Origin: Chitinophaga pinensis
GTDB taxonomy: Bacteria; Bacteroidota; Bacteroidia; Chitinophagales; UBA10324
Assembly (NCBI GenBank): GCA_945903305.1
Contig: CAMDOA010000027.1
Span: forward strand, 1-33,362
Length of the DNA: 33,362 bases
Reading direction: 5' to 3'
Part shown: one piece after another, positions 12,624 to 18,659 of the stretch
How positions within the stretch are numbered: the first letter of the stretch is position 1
Layout of the letters: every line of letters starts with the position of its first letter
Program-made: the position numbers and the translations under genes
The notes under the pieces: model-generated
Told to the model about the DNA's origin: nothing
What the model saw: the letters and a program-made list of their open reading frames with translations, nothing else
Databases searched by the model: none

Positions 12624-13431
12624 TTGGTTCAAGGTCTAATATTTTATCCTTTGTTTTAATTTTTGTCAAATCATTTTTTTGCAAAATCTCTCTCGCCAGG
12701 TTCAGATAATTTACTGCACCCTTGCTGTCAGCATCATACATCACTACTGATTTTCCAACGCTTGGTGCCTCACCTAATTTTGTATTGCGGTGAATGATGG
12801 TTTCAAAAACCAATTCCTGAAAATGCATTTGCACTTGCTCAACAATTTCGTTGCATAGGTTCAAACGCTGGTCATACATGGTTAATAATATTCCTTCAAT
12901 GCTCAGCACCGGATTCAATCGGTTCTGTACAATCTTTATAGTGTTCAATAATTTTCCTAATCCCTCCAATGCAAAAAATTCGCACTGCACAGGAATCAAA
13001 ACCGAATCAGCAGCACTTAAAGCATTCACTGTAATTAAACCCAGTGAAGGCGAACAATCAATGATGATGAAACGAAATTCTTTTCTGATTTCATCCAACA
13101 CGCCTTTCATAATTTTTTCGCGGTCGGGATGATTGATCAATTCAATTTCAGCGCCCACCAGATCCAAATGCGATGGCAGTATATATAAATTCGGCGTATC
13201 GGTTTCAATAATGCAATCTTTAATTTTTGCTTCACCAATTAAACATTCATAAATACTCTTCTTCACTTTTTTCGGGTCGGTTCCCAAGCCGGAAGTAGAG
13301 TTGGCCTGCGGGTCGGCATCAATCAGCAGGGTTTTGTATTCAAGCACCGCCAGGCTTGCAGCGAGATTAATTGCAGTAGTAGTTTTTCCTACTCCGCCTT
13401 TTTGATTTGCAATACAGATTACTTTTCTCAT
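12616..13431 (-). CDS. parA: Chromosome partitioning ATPase ParA
   Basis: Deviant Walker-type ATPase that drives segregation of ParB-parS complexes, 271 aa. The deviant P-loop KGGVGKTT is at residues 11-18, with Lys11 as signature lysine. Switch I is LLIDADPQANSTSGLG (about 35-50), and the Walker B segment FIIIDCSPSLGLITVNAL lies in the middle. There is no N-terminal HTH extension, so this is the chromosomal (Soj-like) form. It is first in the conserved parA-parB-DUF5683-dapB-lepB block and overlaps parB. A TAnnTTTG-type box stands about 43 bp upstream. Confidence 0.96.
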   Translation of the reverse strand: MRKVICIANQKGGVGKTTTAINLAASLAVLEYKTLLIDADPQANSTSGLGTDPKKVKKSIYECLIGEAKIKDCIIETDTPNLYILPSHLDLVGAEIELINHPDREKIMKGVLDEIRKEFRFIIIDCSPSLGLITVNALSAADSVLIPVQCEFFALEGLGKLLNTIKIVQNRLNPVLSIEGILLTMYDQRLNLCNEIVEQVQMHFQELVFETIIHRNTKLGEAPSVGKSVVMYDADSKGAVNYLNLAREILQKNDLTKIKTKDKILDLEPNE

Positions 13432-13473
13432 TCAGAAAAAATTGAAAATTTTATTTGTGTTTTCAATCTCGGT

Positions 13474-13481
13474 CAAAGATA
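13474..13481 (-). promoter_or_regulatory. Candidate -7 promoter element of parA
   Basis: On the minus strand TATCTTTG matches the Bacteroidota -7 consensus TAnnTTTG, 42 bp upstream of the parA start codon. The expected -33 TTTG is not clear at 19-21 nt upstream, so support is partial. Confidence 0.4.
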
Positions 13482-13700
13482 TGCGCAATGAACACCATGC
13501 ACCGGCGAACGAATTCTTTTTATTCACAAATTATACACAAAGCAAAAAATGCGATTGAAAAATATTTTGTCGCGTTGTTTTTTACTTTTTAAAATCAGTT
13601 GTTTTTACTGGCAATTTTTGTTGAAAAATATTTTTTTGAATCTGCTATTTAAATTTTAGAAAACTGATTATAACGCGAAGAGATTTGTCGTGAACAGAGA

Positions 13701-13735
13701 TTTGACAACTTTCTAAAAGTTGTCAAATTTTTTTT
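13701..13735 (+). terminator. Orphan Rho-independent-type hairpin
   Basis: A perfect 12-bp stem TTTGACAACTTT (13701-13712) / AAAGTTGTCAAA (13716-13727) with a 3-nt loop and eight T (13728-13735). No plus-strand gene precedes it, because parA is transcribed the other way. It therefore may end an unannotated small transcript starting in 13440-13700, or insulate the LRR gene downstream. Confidence 0.6.
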
Positions 13736-13823
13736 CACAATCAACAACAACATGGCCAACACTTTTTTAATTTTTCATCTTTCATTTATAATTTATTAAA
13801 CTACTTTTAAAACAAATATTTTT

Positions 13824-16478
13824 ATGAAAAGAATTTTTACAACCCTCCTACTTGTTTTTTCTTTATCGTTTTCCAGTAAATCACAATGGGTAGCCATTCC
13901 GGATGGGCAGTTCGTTGCTTAGCTGCAAACAAGCTATCCAACTTGTATGAATGGGAATTTGATGGATACCACTTGCAGTGGGATTGTGAATGAATTAAAT
14001 GTTACTTGCAGTAATCAAAATATTTCTGATTTAGCAGGGATTCATTATTTCGATTCAATAACTAATCTTGTTTGCTATGGTAATTTATTAACGACTTTGC
14101 CATCGTTGCCAAATTCATTGACTCAGCTTTATTGTACTTATAATTCATTAACGAGTTTGCCATCGCTGCCGAATTCATTAACTGACCTTTATTGTAATGA
14201 TAATTTATTAACAAGCTTGCCATCGCTGCCGAATTCATTAGTTCAACTTCGATGTTTTAATAATTCATTAACGAGTTTTCCATCGTTGCCGAATTCATTA
14301 ACTTATCTTTATTGTAATAATAAATCATTAACGACCTTGCCATCGTTGCCGAATTCATTGACTCAACTTTTATGTAATAATAATTCATTAACGATCTTGC
14401 CATCGCTTCCGAATTCATTAACCTTTCTCTCCTGTTATACTAATTCATTAACTAGCTTGCCATCCTTGCCGAATTCATTACATACTCTTATTTGCGGTAG
14501 TAATACATTAACGAGCTTACCATCCTTGCCAAGTTCATTGTATTCTTTTAATATAAATAATAATCCAGGAATTTTATGCATGCCTCCATTATTAAATTTT
14601 ACTGGACCGGCATCTTATTATAATATTTCAAATACAGGAATTACTTGTCTTCCAAATTTAATTCAGCACACAGGATACATAGCTGCAATTGATACAATGC
14701 CAATTTGTGATGTGTTTAACACAAATGGTTGTGATGTTTATTGGAATGTTAAAGGAAAGGTTGTTAAAGACGGAGACAGCAGTTGTGTTACAACAAATGA
14801 TAGCACTGGAATTCAAATGGTAAAAATGAATTTATATGATGGAGGTAGCAATTTGATTCAACAAGTAATTGCAAATTGGGGAGGAGAGTATTCATTCGAT
14901 ACTCAACTTGGTAATTATTCAACTTCTGTTGATACAGTAAATATTCCATACAATGTTTTATGTCCGACAAATAATAACATAGCAAGTAACCTCACTGCAA
15001 TTGATTCAATGGATTACAATGTTGATTTCAGATTGACTTGCAAACCGGGTTTTGATTTTGGAGTTTGGAATGTAATTCATCATCCAAATTTCTTTCCCGG
15101 AAATATTAATCAAGTTCATGTAATTGCAGGAGATATAACTCAAAGTATTTACAATGTCAGTTGCAGTTCAGGAATAAGCGGAGAAGTAAAAGTTGTTATC
15201 AATGGACTCGCAGATTATGTTTCACCAATATCCGGAGCATTGACACCATCAGTAAACGGAGATACATTGATTTATACCATTGCAGATTTCTCATTGGTTA
15301 ATTCAGCAACTGATTTTGCTTTTAATGTTATAACAGATACAACAGCACAAGGAGGAAATCAGATTTGTTTTGATGTAACAGTAACTCCAACAACAGGAGA
15401 TAATAATATTTCAAACAACACACTCACACATTGTTTTGCAGTCACAAATTCATTTGACCCGAATGAAAAGGAAGTAAGTCCGGTTGGGAGTTTGGAATTT
15501 CCTATTAATGATTGGCTTACTTACACCATTCATTTTCAAAACACAGGAACTGCGGCAGCACAACACATTCAACTGCTCGATACATTGGATGCAGATTTAG
15601 ATGCAAGCACTTTTCAGTTGCTTTCTTATTCTCATACACCAATGGTGCAGTTGTTTGGCAGCAAGGTTCATTTCAATTTTGTCAATATCAATTTAGTTGA
15701 TAGTACAACAGATGCAGAAGCAAGCAAGGGTTATGTGAGTTACAGAATAAAACCACAAGCCAATCTTCCGCTCGGCACCACAATAGAAAACACCGCAAGC
15801 ATTTATTTTGATTTCAACGCGCCTGTTGTAACTAATACCGTGAGCAATGTTATTTGCAATCCGATAATACCAACCAATATCAGTTACTCCATGTGTTCCG
15901 GTGCTTCTTATTTCTTCAATGGAGTTTACTTAACCTCAGCAGGAAATTACACAGCCATTTATAATTCAGTTATCGGCTGCGATTCGGTAGTTCAGCTTTT
16001 CCTTTTAGTCAACGGAGTAAACATGAGTGTGAATCAGTCAAACGATACACTCACCGCACTAACATCGGGCACAGTGCAGTGGTATGATTGCAACACACAA
16101 CAAATAATTCCCGGAGCAACACAAACTGTTTTTATTCCAACCACATCAGGCATGTATGCAGGCATAATTACCGAAGGAAATTGCAGCGATACAACTGCAT
16201 GCACACAAGTATTCACCTCAATAAACGAATTCACAATTAACAATTCACAATTCACCATTTCCCCCAATCCTACTGACGAAAACATAACCATTCAGCTTTC
16301 GCAATCCTGCAATAATTGCCAGATAGAAATCAGCAACACACTTGGGCAAATTCTTCATAAGCAATTAATAAATGATAAGGAAGAAAGTATAAATCTTTCT
16401 TTGCTGCATGCAGGAATTTATTTTGTTGCCATTCGCTCCGATAAATTCAGTGCGGTTAAAAAGTTGGTGAAACAATAA
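13824..16478 (+). pseudogene. Leucine-rich-repeat T9SS surface protein with in-frame stop
   Basis: The ATG at 13824 opens a frame with a signal peptide (MKRIFTTLLLVFSLSFSSKS) and the start of a typical Bacteroidota LRR protein (WVAIPDGQFVA), then meets TAG at codon 33 (13920-13922). The same frame continues without further stops for 851 codons. Related proteins to my knowledge read IPDxxFxxWLQ here, so TAG most likely replaces TGG (Trp). The rest holds eight 20-residue leucine-rich repeats (14097-14576), a linker, a beta-sandwich region (DUF11/DUF7619-like, with NSFDPNEKEVSP and TYTIHFQNTGT), and a C-terminal T9SS sorting domain (ISPNPTDENITIQLS ... GIYFVAIRSDKF). An internal start at 13947 would give a protein with no signal peptide. 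Intact it would be a surface adhesin or binding protein of 884 aa. Confidence 0.8.
14097..14576 (+). repeat. Eight tandem 60-bp repeats encoding leucine-rich repeats
   Basis: Eight in-register 60-bp units encode the 20-residue pattern LPSLPNSLxxLxCxxNxLTx. The first half of each unit (around TTGCCATCGTTGCCGAATTC) is nearly constant, while the xx positions and CxxN region vary, as expected when a binding face diversifies on a conserved scaffold. The last unit is degenerate (LPSLPSSLYSFNINNNPGIL). Confidence 0.9.
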
Positions 16479-16482
16479 TTAG

Positions 16483-16812
16483 TTATTCCAATTCCTCCAC
16501 CTGCTTTTTAAAATCATATTGCAAATCTTCGTGCATGCTCGAAATAAACTTGTTAATCTTTTTTAACTGTGCTTCATATAAATTCAACATCGCATTGCTT
16601 TCCTGATATTTAATTCCGGAACTGTTCAGTTTCGTGCAATAATAAATCAGCAACTCCACAGCAGTTTGTGGTATTCCCGAGTAGCGAATGTGCTTATTAA
16701 TGTTGCGCAATATTATTCGCAAGGTCTTTTTCGTAGTAACAGAGTTACACGAAGTGAACCCAGCGCACTGTAGATGCCGGGTCTCCGACTTGAGGGCCGG
16801 GATATATACCAC
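16483..16812 (-). CDS. Hypothetical protein, doubtful
   Basis: An open frame of 109 aa ending 5 bp from the convergent LRR gene. The C-terminal 70 residues (from about NINKHIRYSGIPQTAVELLI through AQLKKINKFISSMHEDLQYD to the acidic end KKQVEELE) are plausibly helical and coding-like. The first 30 residues, ALKSETRHLQCAGFTSCNSV, come from a GC-rich patch that looks like an inserted repeat, so the original start may have been displaced. I do not recognise a family. It could be the remnant of a longer gene. Confidence 0.3.
   Translation of the reverse strand: MVYIPALKSETRHLQCAGFTSCNSVTTKKTLRIILRNINKHIRYSGIPQTAVELLIYYCTKLNSSGIKYQESNAMLNLYEAQLKKINKFISSMHEDLQYDFKKQVEELE
16735..16810. repeat. GC-rich patch, candidate dispersed repeat
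   Basis: About 75 bp of roughly 60% GC (for example GTAGATGCCGGGTCTCCGAC and GAGGGCCGGG, with GAGTTACACGAAGTGAACCC before it) stands in AT-rich DNA. The wording resembles short mobile or dispersed elements that recur in Bacteroidota intergenic DNA, from memory. Single copy here, no target duplication identified. Confidence 0.35.
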
Positions 16813-17117
16813 CTAACTCCTTTGTATGAATACATGGAGAGAGAAACTGACACGAAATTTTTTATTGCAATTATTTTTCAATGAAGATTAATAAATTTCA
16901 GTGTATTAATATCCGGTTTATTTGTCGCTCCGTTGTCATTCGAAGTGAAACCCCTGGTAGAATATTTTTACAAATCTGCTTTTCATTTTCGCGCCACCGC
17001 ATCAATACTTTTTTTATCAACACCCAATCCACGACAAACTGATTTTTGTCCACAGAATAATTTTGTAATTATGGAAACGACAAGGAATGTTTTCTATTCT
17101 TGTGGCCCTTTAAAAAA
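16813..17117. other. Upstream region of dnaB with a candidate promoter
   Basis: A 305-bp gap with no convincing gene. TAATTTTG at 17058-17065 matches the Bacteroidota -7 consensus TAnnTTTG, 52 bp before the dnaB ATG; no matching -33 element is seen at the usual distance. TTGTCCACA at 17046-17054 is one mismatch from a DnaA box, a weak observation. The rest is AT-rich and featureless to me. Confidence 0.35.
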
Positions 17118-18659
17118 ATGACTGAGCCAAACGACGATATAAAAATTGAACGCCCGCGGGCTATAACCAAGAGACACACAGAAACCGATTTATCGGCTAT
17201 GCTGTATGGCCGCATACAGCCACAGGCGCGCGATTTGGAAGAAGCCGTGCTGGGTGCCATGATGCTGGAGAAAGATGCGGTTGCATTAGTCATTGATATT
17301 CTGAAGCCCGAAAGTTTTTATGTAGAGGCGCATCAATGTATTTACAAAGCAATTTTCAGTTTGTTCAACCGCTCGCAGCCGGTTGATATTTTAACAGTGA
17401 CGGAAGAGTTGCGCAAGCAAGGTGATATTGAAAAAGTGGGTGGCGCTTTTACAGTTGCAGAGTTAACCAATCGGGTGGGTAGTGCCGCCAATGTGGAATA
17501 TCATGCGCGGATCATCAGCCAGAAATTTATTCAGCGTGAATTAATTCGTATCAGTTCCATTATCATTCGCGATTCGTACGAAGACACCACGGATGTACTG
17601 GAGTTATTAGATAAAGCAGAGAAAAATATTTACGACATCACGGATAAAAATCTGCGTCGTAATTTCAGTTCCATATCAGAACTCATCACAAAAAATATTA
17701 AGCAGGTTCAAAGTCTGCGCGATAATAAACTCGACTTTAATGGTGTTCCATCCGGCTTTACTGAGTTGGATAGAATTACAGGCGGTTGGCAAAAAAGTGA
17801 TTTGATAATTGTGGCTGCCCGACCAGGAATGGGTAAAACAGCTTTCGTGCTTTCATTGGCGCGCAATGCAGCTGTTGATTTTAATAAACCTGTTGCGTTT
17901 TTCTCATTAGAGATGAGTGATTTACAATTGACTTCGCGATTAATTTCCGCCGAAACACTAATACCTTCTGATAAACTGCGAAAAGGAAATTTAGAGGAAT
18001 ATGAATGGACTCAATTGACTTCGAACATTGAAAAACTTTCGGCCGCGCCCATTTTTATTGATGATACTCCTGCCATCAATATTTTTGAATTGCGCGCAAA
18101 ATGCCGCCGTTTAAAAATGCAACACGATATTCAACTCATTGTAATAGATTATTTACAACTGATGAGTGGTGGCACCGGCGATAAATCGTTTAACCGTGAG
18201 CAGGAAATAAGTACCATTTCGCGTTCGTTAAAAAGTATTGCCAAAGAATTAAGTGTGCCGGTCATTGCACTTTCGCAATTAAGCCGAGCGGTGGAAACCC
18301 GTGGTGGCAGCAAGAAACCACAACTGAGTGACCTGCGCGAATCGGGAGCCATTGAGCAGGATGCTGATATGGTTATGTTTATCTGGCGACCGGAATATTA
18401 TAATATGACCGAAGATGAAGCCGGTCAGCAATACAATGGAATGGCAGAAATATTAGTACAAAAACATCGTAATGGCGCGCTCGGAACTGTGCAATTGAAA
18501 TTTATTGACCGGTTTGCCAAGTTCGAAGATTACAATGTATCACCTTTCTCATCAGGAGTTGCCCGCGAAGGGTTTACGCAAAATGAGCAAGGTTCTGTTC
18601 AGGTAATGCAATCGAAAAACTGGGATAATAAACAGGATGATGATGTGTCGCCGTTTTAA
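17118..18659 (+). CDS. dnaB: Replicative DNA helicase DnaB
   Basis: Hexameric 5'-3' replication fork helicase, 513 aa. The N-terminal DnaG-interacting domain (about 33-140) begins RIQPQARDLEEAVLGAMMLE, with LKPESFYVEAHQCIYKAIF. The RecA-like motor carries Walker A ARPGMGKT at 234-241, LEMSDLQLTSRLISAE, Walker B LIVIDYLQLMSGG, SQLSRAVETRGGSKKPQLSD (with the arginine finger region), and LRESGAIEQDADMVMFIWRP. No intein is present. I start at the ATG at 17118; an in-frame TTG at 17100 would add six residues. It stands alone, and a candidate -7 box is 52 bp upstream. Confidence 0.97.
   Translation: MTEPNDDIKIERPRAITKRHTETDLSAMLYGRIQPQARDLEEAVLGAMMLEKDAVALVIDILKPESFYVEAHQCIYKAIFSLFNRSQPVDILTVTEELRKQGDIEKVGGAFTVAELTNRVGSAANVEYHARIISQKFIQRELIRISSIIIRDSYEDTTDVLELLDKAEKNIYDITDKNLRRNFSSISELITKNIKQVQSLRDNKLDFNGVPSGFTELDRITGGWQKSDLIIVAARPGMGKTAFVLSLARNAAVDFNKPVAFFSLEMSDLQLTSRLISAETLIPSDKLRKGNLEEYEWTQLTSNIEKLSAAPIFIDDTPAINIFELRAKCRRLKMQHDIQLIVIDYLQLMSGGTGDKSFNREQEISTISRSLKSIAKELSVPVIALSQLSRAVETRGGSKKPQLSDLRESGAIEQDADMVMFIWRPEYYNMTEDEAGQQYNGMAEILVQKHRNGALGTVQLKFIDRFAKFEDYNVSPFSSGVAREGFTQNEQGSVQVMQSKNWDNKQDDDVSPF

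Follow-up and report, generated by a model that had tools for sequence, protein, structure and literature searches.

A premature TAG behind the signal peptide of an LRR/DUF7619 T9SS protein gene: a probable recent null allele in a family with repeated single-stop breaks

The closest described counterparts of the gene studied here are T9SS type A cargo proteins with leucine-rich repeats (LRR) and DUF7619 (PF12799, PF24595, PF18962/TIGR04183). The window, by which we mean the whole stretch of DNA analysed, is contig C27 (33,362 bases) of the 3.12 Mb draft genome, in 138 contigs, of a Bacteroidota-type bacterium (G000; estimated completeness 99.22%, estimated contamination 2.62%). Its LRR gene shares the domain order and sorting tail of this cargo and can be compared directly with an intact paralogue on contig C5, a protein of 1059 amino acids with the same domain order behind a signal peptide recognized by eye. 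The window gene differs by a TAG after the signal peptide, which leaves the tail disconnected from the Sec signal.

A second familiar kind is the young pseudogene with a single lesion in a family of paralogous surface proteins. Such genes too have one nonsense codon, an intact remainder, and broken sister copies, and we found no essential difference between them and the window gene. The third comparison is with programmed readthrough or reassignment of amber codons, of which pyrrolysine, recoded phages, and TMV-type leaky UAG are examples. What they have in common is an in-frame TAG with a long frame under constraint behind it; the window gene differs in the release factor and tRNAs of its genome, in an unconserved stop, and in the use of TAG as a terminator. 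No published report of this case was found in the literature searched.

Reading frame, encoded protein, and genomic setting

The plus-strand frame runs from the ATG at 13824 to a TAA at 16476-16478, and its sole interruption is a TAG at codon 33, with 32 codons on the 5' side and 851 open codons on the 3' side. Translation confirms the claim of an initial sequence-only reading that a single TAG separates a signal peptide from an 851-codon LRR/T9SS protein, with the rest of the gene undamaged. Its description of the first part as "exon-like" is a misnomer. In the mechanical list of open reading frames, the gene appears as 843 amino acids from the ATG at 13947, and by eye this shorter product has no signal peptide. 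The features of the locus are collected in Table 1.

Table 1 Features of the interrupted gene and its surroundings (window coordinates)
Feature	Position	Strand	Evidence
Block unmatched in the DNA fetched next to parA or dnaB from five congeners	13569..16978		Nucleotide similarity
Inverted repeat, then T run; terminator-like by eye	13690..13738		Not listed by terminator scan
Codons 1-32: Sec-type signal peptide, then about 11 residues of the mature N-terminus	13824..13919	+	Translation, by eye; relatives align in frame from the leader onward
In-frame TAG, codon 33	13920..13922	+	Translation; no stop there in 46 aligned relatives
851 post-stop codons and terminal TAA; remainder of LRR/DUF7619/T9SS protein	13923..16478	+	Translation, domain search
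First in-frame ATG after the stop; a restart would give an 843-amino-acid protein without signal peptide	13947..13949	+	List of open reading frames; signal judged by eye
Leucine-rich repeat solenoid, approximate limits	13998..14612	+	LRR_4 PF12799; AlphaFold2 model; repeat match to solved YopM/IpaH-type LRRs
DUF7619 domain, PF24595	15456..15848	+	E 1.6e-44
Por_Secre_tail, T9SS type A C-terminal sorting domain	16257..16469	+	PF18962 E 5e-14; TIGR04183 E 1.7e-13

A Pfam profile search of the post-stop part identified LRR_4 repeats, DUF7619, and a T9SS sorting tail. Since this 851-codon frame contains three Pfam domains above their cut-offs, it is not a product of chance. The sorting tail exceeds the curated cut-offs of both PF18962 (52.8 bits vs 27) and TIGR04183 (50.3 vs 23), which agrees with the earlier statement that the downstream part has a T9SS signal and no Sec signal, the absence of the latter being judged by eye. 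An N-terminal Sec signal is not part of the same translated product; a leader is encoded, its signal again recognized by eye, and is separated from the rest by the TAG.

The AlphaFold2 model of the post-stop part was generated from a 19-sequence alignment and has a mean pLDDT of 74.9 and a pTM of 0.45. It contains a solenoid with a strand each 20 residues from post-stop residues 48 to 208, followed by beta domains and a beta-rich tail. The repeats are similar to those of YopM, SspH, and IpaH proteins in the PDB. Because this likeness is confined to about residues 55-214, and the NCBIfam SspH2 and SlrP models match far under their cut-offs, we read it as a shared repeat type. Prior to the lesion, the protein would likely have been a secreted or surface-attached binding protein.

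On the parA side, nucleotide similarity to five congeners runs out at 13548-13568; on the dnaB side it picks up again at 16979-17015. An orthologue at the same place was sought in these congeners via both parA and dnaB. In the flanks read (about 7-10 kb each; 1.1 kb for the parA side of G002), the LRR gene was not found, and nor was the other neighbour, so none of the fetched DNA showed the order parA/LRR/dnaB. The gene thus occupies either a block specific to its lineage or a joint left by rearrangement, which fits an accessory copy. A stop flagged in the dnaB of G004 was absent over residues 6-519. The inverted repeat of Table 1 lies approximately 85 bases upstream of the start codon and could end transcription before the gene. 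A repeat-borne hairpin was rejected here, with the 13701-13727 hairpin type occurring at two genomic places, this one included.

The paralogue family and its broken copies

The window gene is a member of a dispersed paralogue family that breaks often. We examined 52 loci and compared codon 33 across 46 aligned N-termini, which come from 44 of them; the other eight loci gave no alignment over the site. The residue is Trp in 25, Tyr in 11, Phe in six, Lys in two, Ile in one, and Ala in one, with no stop in any. The claim that relatives have Trp at this site is thus correct as to a sense, mostly aromatic codon, and Trp itself is simply the commonest state. Copies with a sense codon 33 occur in many genomes, and the absence of the disabling stop from all 46 aligned relatives is what would be expected of a young pseudogene. 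In 44 of the 46, the alignment over the site begins no later than residue 8 of the leader and in the same frame, indicating that relatives do not use the internal ATG as their start; orthologues that do so with their own signal peptide were not seen among them. One of these 44, L017, has a TAG of its own that cuts it at the leader end.

This genome has 62 matches to the family. Seven are loci that either have the N-terminal and LRR part or are highly identical across most of the remainder (C27, which is the window, C5, C42, C35, C2, C9, and C17), and the other matches are to middle or tail domains only. The C35 copy (G000:C35:12172, L044:1966) has a single TAG inside the LRR region and is otherwise open to the T9SS tail. 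The closest paralogue, at 79% identity over 592 amino acids, is the C17 copy (G000:C17:8909-10684, L041), which is without the N-terminal third, comprising the signal peptide and LRR; no remnant of this third was seen by eye upstream of C17 in three frames. Outside this genome, G004:C19 is broken by a TAA, G033:C8 by a TGA, and L017 by the TAG mentioned above.

Thirty-six family members, the window gene included, have both an N-terminus and a frame that closes in the fetched DNA. Four have exactly one internal stop, and the frame of the remaining 32 continues to the C-terminal tail, as judged by eye. Nine of 45 rows had been set aside from this list (one duplicate, seven running off, and one at a contig end); L037, with a frame ended by TGA near the contig end, was set aside. 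The fifth broken copy, G033:C8, is absent from the 36-member list and was found separately. The five broken copies have three TAG, one TAA, and one TGA, at five different sites. TAG is not significantly in excess (three or more of five, P 0.13, with an expected share of 27%), and we rejected a TAG-specific pattern in the family. Varying stop codons at varying places also argue against programmed readthrough.

Each of the five has one stop, and none has a frameshift. Neutral decay is expected to give frameshifts too, so this set may include consensus errors or polymorphism. Two more stop-flagged matches, among the matches listed, were left out of the five. G005:C8 has one TAA in a match that covers the C-terminal part only, and would add to the variety of stops. 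G043:C109 was flagged with two TGA and one TAA and realigned only from residue 378 on, without a stop, which suggests a more decayed or truncated copy. In G004:C19 (L145), DUF7619 is 88% identical to that of the window copy and the preceding region 45%, a mosaic suggestive of possible domain exchange among paralogues. Variation in LRR copy number has been described among Flavobacterium psychrophilum isolates in one report (PMC8400371).

We next consider the frame beyond the stop. Post-stop pairwise dN/dS is 0.06-0.30 in the comparison with C17 and 0.17-0.24 in that with G004:C4; for C5, where the C-terminal part is saturated, it is 0.13-0.31. The nine pairs together span 0.06 to 0.44, with saturation in some parts. 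These values reflect past purifying selection in the history of both copies and do not require current translation. For each 1% of neutral divergence, 0.87-1.25 nonsense changes are expected, and none was seen beyond the TAG. This absence places the loss of function within about 2.4-3.5% neutral divergence (95% level, indels ignored). With 851 open codons and dN/dS of 0.06-0.31, the gene shows no further decay, again as in a young pseudogene.

Decoding of TAG and a tRNA-like element beside tuf

RF1 is present in this genome (481 bits vs a cut-off of 423). No UAG-reading (CUA) tRNA, the suppressor that the sequence-only reading had proposed to look for, was found among 33 tRNA matches, a search in which 150 of 229 first-look candidates were scored and an aberrant tRNA could be missed. 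TAG is the terminator of four of 26 open reading frames in the window, six of the 32 listed having been dropped as overlapping antisense frames, and among 203 long, coding-like frames from the window and 400 kb of sampled genome it ends 30. Together, the presence of RF1, the failure to find a CUA tRNA among the matches scored, and genes ending in TAG led us to reject reassignment of this codon. No Rfam element matched within 13000-17200 at E values up to 1.

ARAGORN assigned an amino acid to 32 of the 33 tRNA matches. The remaining match is an odd tRNA-like element located outside the window, between tRNA-Thr(GGT) and tuf (G000:C69:9621-9697, L198:1509-1584; also L199-L203), and present at the same position in this genome and all five congeners. 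It may form a cloverleaf. The anticodon arm of this fold is a stem of 7 bp, with one mismatch in G003, that is capped by an invariant GAAA tetraloop, and the usual anticodon loop is thus missing. Three of the six sequences have the full four-stem structure as their minimum-energy fold, and G004 comes close to it. In the minimum-energy folds of G003 and G001, the acceptor stem is unformed and the GAAA hairpin is formed. Covariation is weak, with the observed score reached by 113 of 500 shuffles. A DNA search recovered the element in six of 30 genomes, all within the genus. A covariance model matched all 60 genomes searched, the examined matches outside the genus being mostly ordinary tRNAs; of 14 non-genus loci examined (10 beside tuf), one, from G010 of the same family, has this place occupied by a different tRNA-like element. 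The element is perhaps a tRNA mimic that acts as a processing signal or a regulator of tuf. No published report of a GAAA-loop tRNA-like element beside tuf was found in the literature searched.

Origin of the premature stop

The window gene is probably a real, recent nonsense (null) allele of a redundant accessory LRR/DUF7619 protein exported by Sec and T9SS. Its intact ancestor would have been one such exported protein from the dispersed, redundant paralogue family, and a single nonsense mutation at codon 33 would have created the null allele. Ribosomes would then release a 32-residue peptide made of the signal peptide and a short stub. The remainder would be untranslated or, if restarted internally, barred from the Sec pathway, leaving no secreted product. 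From the comparisons above, the protein appears to be lost, its location to have been the surface or the medium into which it was secreted, its loss to be tolerated through redundancy, and the assembled base to be real.

The main rival reading is less likely, at a chance we would put as small but appreciable: here the TAG would be an error of the draft assembly, arising from base calling, the consensus, or mixed strains, and the living population would have an intact gene. The assembly is fragmented into its 138 contigs, has the 2.62% estimated contamination, and is probably a metagenome bin, given that most of the named relatives are MAGs. The lesion is also a single codon in an otherwise intact gene, and five broken copies with in-frame stops and no frameshift would suit substitution-type errors or mixed strains. 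Against this, a 438-kb scan for internal stops (20 stretches amounting to 400 kb of the 3.12 Mb, together with the window and, as a control, the C35 copy) passed 42 stops, of which only one besides C35 was read by eye as intragenic, in a scan insensitive enough that the window TAG itself failed. That one stop sits in another accessory repeat protein gene. The locus concerned is a kelch-repeat gene at G000:C13:39591 (L185:19591), seemingly cut by one in-frame TAA. Two TAG-cut copies and one truncated copy in a seven-locus family look, qualitatively, like more than evenly spread errors would give, and the further broken family members favour a real lesion over a sequencing error. Of the three origins first proposed, a very recent lesion, a sequencing error, or readthrough, the first two remain, with the broken relatives favouring the former, and readthrough is unsupported.

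Readthrough of the TAG, by near-cognate misreading or a suppressor, to give a low or conditional amount of exported protein is very improbable. Purifying selection in the downstream frame, as seen in the pairwise comparison, would be consistent with it, but that signal is historical. In one E. coli study, reporters with premature stops were able to leak at some sites, and a T-rich sequence before the stop lowered leakage (PMC11126739); the bases preceding the window TAG, TTGCT, are T-rich. RF1 and the lack of a CUA tRNA among the matches scored also count against readthrough, as do a stop conserved in 0 of 46 relatives and a family broken by all three stops in different contexts and at different sites.

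We give similarly little credence to the idea that the family maintains a leaky reservoir of surface variants, in which a pool of copies one nonsense codon from working, and not frameshifted, might be re-activated as individual exported LRR proteins by rare readthrough or reversion. Finally, a true start downstream of the stop, with the upstream 32 codons unrelated, is hardly credible: the mechanical list does begin the gene at the ATG at 13947, but relatives align unbroken through the leader and stop site, and the shorter product has no signal peptide by eye.

As a probable recent null allele, the window gene is a clean example of very young loss in an expanding family of T9SS exported proteins, and a caution against calling such TAG codons recoded. 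The finding itself is ordinary, and its interest is in the repeated single-stop breaks across the family. If nonsense-only breaks held in read data, surface-protein turnover or switching in uncultured Bacteroidota would become testable.
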